From positions 1 through 64,000 of the forward strand of contig JAHFCU010000008.1 in the NCBI GenBank assembly GCA_023249305.1: a DNA stretch of 64,000 nucleotides. The letters are read 5' to 3'. The notes under the pieces were generated by a model, which was given only the letters and a program-made list of their open reading frames with translations, ran no database searches and was not told where the DNA came from. Position 1 is the first letter of the stretch. The number at the start of each line of letters is the position of its first letter. The stretch comes from Gemmatimonadota bacterium. GTDB taxonomy: Bacteria; Gemmatimonadota; Gemmatimonadetes; Gemmatimonadales; Gemmatimonadaceae. Made by a program: the position numbers and the translations under genes. Below are positions 23,366-26,330 of the stretch, piece after piece.

Positions 23366-23421
23366 CCATCACAATCCGGAATCAGGATCCTGTATCGCAA
23401 TCCGAGTTCCAAGTCCTCAAT
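23366..23421. repeat. Single-arm word array (family C)
   Basis: ATCCGGA ATCAGGA TCCTGTA TCGCAAT CCGAGTT CCAAGTC CTCAATC. Confidence 0.6.
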
Positions 23422-25385
23422 CAGCTTTCGTCCGCTTCGTACTGGTCCTTAAGAGATGCCACGACACTCGGATCCGCCAGCGTCGTCGTATCGCCGAGCG
23501 TGCGGCCCTCGGCGATGTCGCGCAGCAGCCGGCGCATAATCTTGCCCGAGCGCGTCTTCGGAAGGTCGGCGCTGAAGAGGATGTCGTCCGGCCGCGCGAT
23601 GGCGCCGATCTTCTCGGCCACGAATTCGCGCAGTTCGTCGCGCAGCGCCGGACTCTGATGGAAGCCGTCGCGCAGTGTGACGAATGCCGCGATGGACTGC
23701 CCCTTCATCTCGTGCGTCTTGCCCACCACGGCCGCCTCGGCGACGGCTTGGTGCTCAACCAACGCGCTCTCCACCTCCATGGTGCCGATGCGGTGGCCCG
23801 CGACGTTCAGCACGTCGTCCACACGCCCCATGATCCAATAGAAGCCGTCCTCGTCGCGCTTGGCGCCGTCGCCCGGGAAGTAGAGATCGGGGCGGCCCGC
23901 CCATTTGGTGAAGTACGTTTCCACGTAACGCGCGTCGTCGCCCCAGATCGTGCGGAGCATGGACGGCCAAGGCTTGGTGAGGGCGAGCAGACCGCCGCCC
24001 ACCGGAATCTCGTTGCCCTTTGAATCGAGCAGTGCCGCGTGATAGCCGGGCAACGGCTGCGTCGCGCTTCCCGGCTTGGTCGCCGTCAATCCCGGCAGCG
24101 GCGAGATGACGATCGCGCCGGTTTCCGTCTGCCACCACGTGTCCACGATGGGGCAACGGAGGCCGCCGATCACCTTATGGTACCAGATCCAGGCCTCTGG
24201 GTTGATCGGCTCGCCAACGGTGCCGAGCAGACGCAGGCGCGAGAGATCGTGCCGCGCGGGATGCTGTTCGCCCCACTTCATGAAGGCGCGAATCGCCGTC
24301 GGCGCCGTGTAGAAAACCGAGACGCCGTACTTCTCGCAGATCTCCCAGAAACGATTGCGCTCCGGCCAGTCGGGTGCGCCCTCGTACATCACGCATGTGG
24401 TGCCGTTGGCCAGCGGGCCGTACACCAGGTACGAATGACCCGTGATCCAGCCGACGTCAGCCGTGCACCAGAACACATCGTCTTCCTTGAGGTCGAAGAC
24501 ATATTTTGTGGTGGCCGTCACGCCCGTGAGATAGCCGCCGGTGGTGTGCACGATGCCCTTCGGCTTGCCGGTCGTTCCCGACGTGTAGAGGATGAACAGC
24601 ACATCCTCGGCGTCCATCGCCTCGGGGGCGCAGTCGGCTTTGGCCGCCTGCATGAGACGGTGCCACCAGTGGTCGCGTCCCTCCTTCATTTGCGCGAAGG
24701 ACTCGTCGCCCATGCCACCCGGGCGGCGCTGCACGACGATGACGTGCTTCACGCACGGCGCGCCTTCGAGCGCCTTGTCGGTGTTCCGCTTCAGCGGCGA
24801 CACCTGGCCGCGGCGGTAGCCGCCATCCGCGGTGATCAGCACCTTCGCCTGGGCGTCGTTCATCCGGTCGCGCAGCGACTCGGGAGAGAAGCCGCCGAAG
24901 ACCACGCTGTGGATCGCGCCGATGCGCGCGCAGGCGAGCATCGCGATCGCCGCTTCAGGGATCATCGGCAGGTAGATGCCCACACGGTTCCCGCGCTTGA
25001 CGCCGAGCGACTTGAGCACGTTGGCGAACTTCTGGACTTCGCGGTACAAGTCCCAGTAGGTGAGCACGCGCGAGTCACCCGGCTCGCCCTCCCACACAAT
25101 CGCCGCCTTGTTGCGGTGCGCGCCGCGCACGTGGCGGTCAATGCAGTTCACCGAGACGTTCAGCCGGCCGCCGTGGAACCACTTCGCGTGCGGTGGCGTC
25201 CAGTCAAGCACGTCGGTAAACGGCACCATCCATTCCAGCTCGAGCGCGTGCCGCGCCCAGAACGCTTCAAAGTCAAGCGCAGACTCGGCGTGCAATGACG
25301 TGTCCTTCACCACCGCCTGATGACGGAAGTGTTCCGAGGGCGGGAAGGAACGGTTCTCGGTGAGCAGCGTGTCGAGATCGGACAT
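23421..25385 (-). CDS. acs: Acetyl-CoA synthetase
   Basis: [43 protein letters not shown]. Confidence 0.97.
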
Positions 25386-25676
25386 AAGTGTGCGGCGGGG
25401 AATGGCGGGAGGCCGCCGTTGGCTGGGGCCAAGGACGGCATTCAATGAATGCGACAGACGATAGCCGGGGCGAGGGTCGTGGGCAACGTGCTTCGGCGCG
25501 TTCCACGCACGCCGTTTGCGCTGTGACGATTCGGATTCGCGTCGTGACTATAAGCGAAAATGACGGTGTTCGGCGAGCTGCCTCGCGAAGCGCGGGAAGC
25601 GCCACGGGAAGACGCCATCACGATGTGATAATCGCGTAAATGACAGCATAGCAATGTGTTATCGCACTGCTAGTTC

Positions 25677-25692
25677 TGGCACGTTTCTCGCA
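25677..25692 (+). promoter_or_regulatory. Candidate sigma-54 promoter
   Basis: TGGCACGTTTCTCGCA vs TGGCACG-N4-TTGCA; GG-to-GC spacing correct; one core mismatch. Confidence 0.65.
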
Positions 25693-25721
25693 GTACAAGG
25701 GTGCACCAACTGAATGCTGCA

Positions 25722-25806
25722 TCACCCGACAAGAGCACACCCGTTGTGAGACGGGGCCGCAAAACCAGGAATCTCAGACGAGCGAGACGGTCCGGTTGCC
25801 GAAGGT
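25722..25806 (+). ncRNA. Candidate c-di-GMP-I (GEMM) riboswitch
   Basis: GAGCACACCCGTT-GTGA-GACGGGGCCGCAAAACC...GAGACGGTCCGGTTGCCGA; GNRA-capped stem, CGCAAA core, GGTTGCCGA 3' end. Confidence 0.72.
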
Positions 25807-25885
25807 GGCGAGGTCCGATGAAGACCGAGCAGGCGACTGGAGGGAAGAGCGGAAGGCGATGGTCGGACGCAGCGAGGAGGTCACC

Positions 25886-26197
25886 ATGTATCCGCCAATG
25901 CAACCAGATCAGGTCGTCCTGCAGGCCCCCGAACGTCTCGTGTCGGAGCACAGGCTTGACTTCCGGCGTGACGCGCTTGAACGGCTGATGAAGGCTGCTG
26001 CTGAAGGCGCGCAGCGTATCACGATCGACCTGCGCGACACGCGCGAGGTGGACGCGAGCGGCCTAGGCGTGCTCGTGCTTCTGCAGAAGCGCGCGCGGGA
26101 GAGTTTCCTCAGCACGCGCCTGACGCATACGCCTCCCACGGTGCGCCACCTCCTGCACCTCACGCAGCTCGAAGGCCTCTTCGAGTTCGAGGACTGA
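25886..26197 (+). CDS. STAS-domain protein (anti-sigma factor antagonist-like)
   Basis: ITIDLRDTREVDASGLGVLVLLQKRA; SD GAGGAGG before ATG 25886. Confidence 0.88.
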   Translation: MYPPMQPDQVVLQAPERLVSEHRLDFRRDALERLMKAAAEGAQRITIDLRDTREVDASGLGVLVLLQKRARESFLSTRLTHTPPTVRHLLHLTQLEGLFEFED

Positions 26198-26291: not shown

Positions 26292-26330
26292 ACCGGATCC
26301 GGCCACTTCGGCCGGGTCCGGTTCTCCTTT
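26292..26330 (+). terminator. Terminator-like hairpin before ggt
   Basis: ACCGGATCCGGCC-acttc-GGCCGGGTCCGGT then TCTCCTTTCC. Confidence 0.6.

Follow-up and report, generated by a model that had tools for sequence, protein, structure and literature searches.

An A20-type GEMM-I aptamer between a sigma-54-type promoter and a STAS gene in Gemmatimonadaceae

Gemmatimonadota are poorly known bacteria of soil and water. The DNA analyzed here, referred to below as the window, is a stretch of 64,000 nucleotides (64 kb) from a Gemmatimonadota draft genome of 2.5 Mb with a completeness of 78.6%. In it, a sigma-54-type promoter, a GEMM-I aptamer, and a gene for a small STAS protein follow one another on the plus strand, next to a divergent acetyl-CoA synthetase-like gene. 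The features of the locus, with the basis of each assignment, are as follows.

23421 to 25385, minus strand: acetyl-CoA synthetase (acs)-like gene, the divergent neighbor (from the list of open reading frames; named from its sequence)
25616 to 25664, plus strand: upstream activator-like region, an imperfect palindrome (ATCACGATGTGAT) followed by GTAA...GTTA inverted elements (columns invariant in 11 species)
25677 to 25692, plus strand: sigma-54-type −24/−12 promoter, TGGCACGTTTCTCGCA, divided as TGGCACG-TTTC-TCGCA (sequence, spacing, conservation, and the presence of rpoN)
25703 to 25721, plus strand: predicted +1 and conserved short 5' leader, CAACTGAA-GCTGC (distance from the −12 element; conservation in the genus)
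25722 to 25806, plus strand: GEMM-I aptamer, with the Rfam RF01051 match at 25724 to 25803 (cmscan; covariation in 30 orthologues)
25725 to 25728 with 25800 to 25805, plus strand: P1 (model alignment)
25734, plus strand: equivalent of Vc2 position 20, the first ligand-base contact, here A (model alignment, ungapped comparison, and 31 orthologues)
25735 to 25760, plus strand: P2, with its GUGA cap at 25746 to 25749 (model alignment)
About 25763 to 25797, plus strand: P3 (model alignment)
25807 to 25885, plus strand: region from the aptamer to the start codon, the candidate expression platform (minimum-energy fold)
25874 to 25880, plus strand: Shine-Dalgarno sequence GAGGAGG (sequence; kept in the genus)
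25886 to 26197, plus strand: gene for a single-domain, anti-sigma-factor-antagonist-like STAS protein of 103 amino acids (Pfam PF13466 and PF01740)
26292 to 26322, plus strand: terminator-like hairpin after the STAS gene (sequence)

The original prediction had placed a STAS gene at ATG 25886 behind the Shine-Dalgarno sequence GAGGAGG. Both elements are conserved, and the product scored above the cut-offs of two Pfam STAS models (PF13466, 38 bits against 29.2; PF01740, 34.2 bits against 22.6). Its score against the NCBIfam model for anti-sigma factor antagonists, TIGR00377, was below the cut-off (31.5 versus 53.45 bits); the closest solved relative was TM1442 (1sbo), a putative anti-sigma-factor antagonist. 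Within the genus the protein is 78 to 89% identical, and Ser58 of its D-A-S58-G-L-G motif, a candidate phosphorylation site of the D-x-S-G type at the start of the helix, was invariant in 11 species. HATPase_c_2 domains, which would be candidates for an anti-sigma kinase, gave one strong match in one genome (G052) and weaker ones in the draft genome from which the window comes. In 27 of 28 related loci the acs-like gene stands upstream of the STAS gene in divergent orientation; the STAS transcription unit itself is probably monocistronic.

Next, the promoter was examined. The −24/−12 box that had been read at 25677 to 25692 held up: GG (25678 to 25679) and GC (25690 to 25691) are separated by exactly 10 nucleotides (GG-N10-GC), and both dinucleotides were kept in the leaders of all 11 genus genomes, in a conserved TGGCAC...TYGC context. 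The same exact spacing was found in each of the 31 aptamer-bearing leaders, and a TGGCA-type box was present in 66 of the 69 STAS loci examined, a count in which some loci are duplicates of one genome taken from two collections. Judged by distance from the −12 element, transcription would begin near 25703, about 20 nucleotides before the aptamer. The genome encodes rpoN (Sigma54_DBD, 217 bits), on which the promoter would be expected to depend. The upstream activator-like region (UAS) spans about −87 to −39 relative to the predicted +1, and its conserved palindromes lie at the distance expected for an enhancer-binding protein site, which they may constitute. These palindromes, GTCAC-NNN-GTGAY and GTAA...GTTA, are common to leaders with and without an aptamer. 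A composite pattern of the UAS and the −24 element occurred once per genome and always at the STAS locus (11 of 11 genus genomes), with no control matches. A wider sigma-54 regulon was considered and rejected: matches to the bare box did not exceed those of a reversed-pattern control, and the composite matched the STAS locus only. No sigma-54 box was found on the acs side in the 11 genomes.

The leader had been assigned to the GEMM-I class from sequence hallmarks, and comparison of the whole window with Rfam (cmscan) confirmed the assignment. RF01051 (c-di-GMP-I, a member of clan CL00126) matched with 53.1 bits against a gathering cut-off of 35 (E value, 1.5e-7), and this was the sole Rfam match above cut-off in the 64 kb. 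With relaxed thresholds RF03167 (c-di-GMP-I-GGC) gave 53.8 bits, under its cut-off of 59; several orthologues of the aptamer, both A20 and G20, pass that cut-off. P1 to P3 showed standard pairs in 95.3% of the predicted pair cells across 30 orthologous aptamers, compared with 23 to 52% when the partner strand was slid, and the covariation score of 0.113 exceeded those of all 500 shuffles, so that conserved pairing in homologous leaders was borne out as well. An anticipated pairing of the 3' segment with the 5' segment stood in part: CCGAAGG takes part in P1, but GGUU pairs with AACC inside P3. Aptamer positions are given here in Vc2 numbering, which follows the Vc2 sequence combined with the Rfam alignment. 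The equivalents of A47 (25761) and C92 (25799) are both present and were invariant in 30 species, and P2 opens with a G-C pair, as it does in Vc2. The aptamer thus resembles Vc2 of Vibrio cholerae (RF01051) in its three helices, GNRA-capped P2, CGCAAA core, A47 and C92, and location in a gene leader, and differs from it in having A rather than G at position 20 and a STAS gene as its target.

GEMM-I riboswitches are very common in the order, with RF01051 matches in 177 of 251 sampled genomes and up to nine per genome. The STAS-linked aptamers differ from most of these others (L002 to L031), which carry a GAAA tetraloop with a ACGAGGCUA-type P3; the STAS-linked aptamers carry GYGA with CCAGGA...UCCGG. 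Comparison of L002 to L031 with the A20 leaders suggests that tetraloop and receptor change together.

Cyclic di-GMP had been proposed as the ligand. This is not established, since position 20 is A (25734), which the original prediction had missed. Among 31 orthologous aptamers, position 20 was A in 27 and G in three (L130, L131, and L133); the remaining aptamer, L175 (genome G267), has a J1/2 that is shorter by one base, giving either a C or a one-base deletion at this position. A20 occurred on every deep branch of the STAS tree, and the three G20 orthologues formed one nested clade, the aptamers of which are otherwise near-identical to the A20 aptamers. In the rest of the order, G20 was seen in the 30 top-scoring aptamers except the odd L019, in which GGCCA stands in place of GGCAA.

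A20 marks the cGAMP-sensing GEMM-Ib riboswitches, and in Geobacter its replacement by G shifts a riboswitch from cGAMP to c-di-GMP (PMC6456294). The aptamer studied here lacks G20, the hallmark of GEMM-Ia, and has the GEMM-Ib bases A20 and the C92 equivalent, that is, A at the first ligand contact and C at the second; binding of cGAMP at least equal to that of c-di-GMP is therefore to be expected. We consider it somewhat more likely than not that, in vitro, the affinity of the RNA for 3',3'-cGAMP matches or exceeds that for c-di-GMP. The likeness to the Geobacter GEMM-Ib riboswitches (Gs1761, Gmet_0970) extends to A20 and the C at the second ligand contact. The two differ in the first P2 pair, which is C-G (C15-G40) in the Geobacter cGAMP aptamer structure (PMC6274999) and not G-C, in that a Hypr GGDEF enzyme was not found and no terminator was seen in the platform, and in their targets, since here a single gene, neither a cytochrome nor a pilus gene, is served in a member of the phylum Gemmatimonadota.

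The order of promoter, aptamer, and STAS gene, as originally read, was recovered across many species. All three elements occurred together in 11 of 11 sampled genomes of the genus, each with exactly one RF01051 match, and a family-wide STAS profile search added about 20 non-redundant Gemmatimonadaceae orthologues with an aptamer. About 20 other non-redundant orthologues had no aptamer and retained the promoter and the gene; the distance from promoter to STAS start was 195 to 298 nucleotides with an aptamer and usually 50 to 100 without one. When the aptamer state was mapped onto a tree of 51 STAS proteins, which was built from a short alignment and in which many forks are unresolved, it required several changes. 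One aptamer-less member is nested inside the G20 clade and one inside an A20 clade, and aptamer losses are therefore likely. The sigma-54 promoter and the STAS gene thus stay constant, and the aptamer between them is likely a cassette that has been lost repeatedly. A small clade contains both states: L130, L131, and L133 carry the G20 aptamer, and L128 has lost the aptamer and kept the promoter and gene. A contig labeled Chloroflexota (L163) has a Gemmatimonadota-like STAS gene and promoter and is probably misbinned.

The region between the aptamer and the start codon was then considered as an expression platform. No terminator-like site was found between the aptamer and the ATG, and a transcription-terminator platform was therefore dropped; control is thus probably translational. 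The minimum-energy fold computed for the free RNA pairs GUCGG and GCAGC, close to the Shine-Dalgarno sequence, with the 5' strand of P1 and the leader preceding it, the candidate long-range pairs being GUCGG (25862 to 25866) with CCGAC (25726 to 25730) and GCAGC (25869 to 25873) with GCUGC (25716 to 25720). This helix was paired in 96.4% of cells in 11 species, but double (compensatory) changes were absent and shuffled controls were not exceeded; it is a candidate alternative fold. When 31 leaders were modeled, the mean accessibility of the Shine-Dalgarno sequence was 0.35 in the free state and 0.40 in the bound state, compared with a gain of 0.01 in platform-shuffled controls; the gain, a small one, came mainly from the genus itself and a few others and was not consistent across other genera. 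The models lean weakly toward a ligand that switches translation ON. Seven of the 11 genus leaders (L040 and L043 to L048) have a second Shine-Dalgarno sequence and an in-frame ATG 39 nucleotides upstream of the STAS start (CGGAGG...ATGCGG), possibly an alternative start or a decoy; the corresponding stretch of the genome studied here (25840 to 25862) does not have it.

A tie between cyclic dinucleotides and STAS proteins had been called unusual. In part this has precedent: regulation of diguanylate cyclases at the level of the protein is known for HsbA, for BgrV, and for SiaC, which is STAS-like (PMC8457831; PMC5085249). The HsbA-HsbD, BgrV-BgrR, and SiaC-SiaD systems share with this locus a STAS or STAS-like protein in cyclic-dinucleotide signaling; they differ from it in that the STAS protein binds the cyclase, whereas here STAS synthesis would come under a cyclic-dinucleotide riboswitch. 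A riboswitch-controlled partner-switch STAS gene, on the other hand, was not found in the literature searched. In the open-licence literature, which leaves most subscription journals outside, there was no paper on GEMM-I in Gemmatimonadota or on a STAS gene with GEMM-I. Given the known STAS regulators of diguanylate cyclases, feedback of the STAS protein studied here onto messenger synthesis is one possibility by analogy.

These results suggest the following model, which as a whole we think somewhat better supported than not. The dedicated sigma-54 promoter is probably activated from the upstream palindromes by an enhancer-binding protein and would yield a short mRNA consisting of the A20-type GEMM-I leader and one STAS gene. 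Ligand binding would close P1 and refold a stretch of about 80 nucleotides reaching to the Shine-Dalgarno sequence. In the ON direction, closure of P1 would break the pairing of its 5' strand and the leader with GUCGG and GCAGC, and the level of the messenger would set STAS translation. The STAS protein would most likely serve in partner switching in the manner of an anti-sigma antagonist, and its target might be a diguanylate cyclase or a kinase.

The messenger itself was approached from the enzyme side. Hypr GGDEF enzymes have Ser in place of the canonical Asp (PMC6456294; PMC7288161), and Ser at this base-contact position was used as their signature. It was seen in none of the 64 readable GGDEF domains (65 matches) of 11 genus genomes and in none of the 43 GGDEF matches of five relatives, three of which are listed as 100% complete. 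The pooled survey of about 107 domains from 16 genomes turned up one Asn at the Hypr position and a few degenerate domains. All genomes examined carry canonical GGDEF enzymes, and the genome studied here has six GGDEF-domain matches. A SMODS-type CD-NTase occurred in one of 22 genomes (L229, in G146). With that one exception, neither signature was recognized, and Hypr GGDEF and CD-NTase enzymes were set aside as the cGAMP source. The base in the aptamer and the enzyme inventory point in different directions as to the ligand, and cGAMP as the ligand in the cell is rated below cGAMP binding in vitro.

A c-di-GMP riboswitch of the ordinary kind, with A20 lowering affinity to fit a high cellular c-di-GMP level and with no part for cGAMP, would agree with this inventory of canonical GGDEF enzymes, without Hypr enzymes and nearly without CD-NTases. 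It would agree also with the occurrence of G20 in one orthologous clade, and a G20A variant of Vc2 has been solved as a c-di-GMP riboswitch mutant (PDB 3MUM, listed in PMC10671752). However, A20 is retained in most orthologues and on deep branches, against G20 in the order's best-scoring aptamers, and in Geobacter base 20 decides the choice of ligand (PMC6456294). We regard this explanation as a serious contender, though not the one we would expect to prevail.

A cGAMP-specific riboswitch served by a synthase of unrecognized type, and thus a separate cGAMP pathway in Gemmatimonadota, is favored by the retention of A20 together with the C92 and A47 equivalents and by the presence, in every genome of the genus, of one dedicated target only. 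Against it, no candidate synthase was found by the two known signatures in genomes of which several are incomplete drafts, with listed completeness among the relatives reaching 100% (G100 and G001). It is a tentative proposal that we hold to be rather unlikely. The same doubtful standing applies to its extension, in which a single-target cGAMP riboswitch on the sigma-54-driven STAS gene would have reverted from A to G in one sub-clade and switched there to c-di-GMP.

Alternatively, the aptamer may have lost ligand binding and persist only as a structured leader affecting mRNA stability or spacing. It does score below many other aptamers of the order, and it has been lost several times, but the covarying helices and the invariance of the A47 and C92 equivalents in 30 species make this very improbable. 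That promoter and aptamer are both chance resemblances, for which nothing speaks except the risk that attends any reading of patterns, is refuted for practical purposes by the single significant Rfam match in 64 kb, its recurrence at the same place in 11 of 11 genus genomes, and a composite pattern found once per genome.

The reading that we prefer is thus probable translational control of a STAS partner-switch-type protein by an A20 GEMM-I leader transcribed from a sigma-54 promoter. The GEMM-I class itself is known; what is new here is an A20 member that has a single target in the genus and behaves as a loss-prone cassette. The synthesis of a STAS partner-switch-type protein would in this way be placed under a cyclic-dinucleotide riboswitch. 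The natural variants at position 20, lying in orthologous leaders of one gene, make ligand switching and aptamer loss directly amenable to study. If the ligand is cGAMP, signaling of the GEMM-Ib type would extend to a phylum in which neither known synthase signature was found in this survey, and would point to a missing enzyme.
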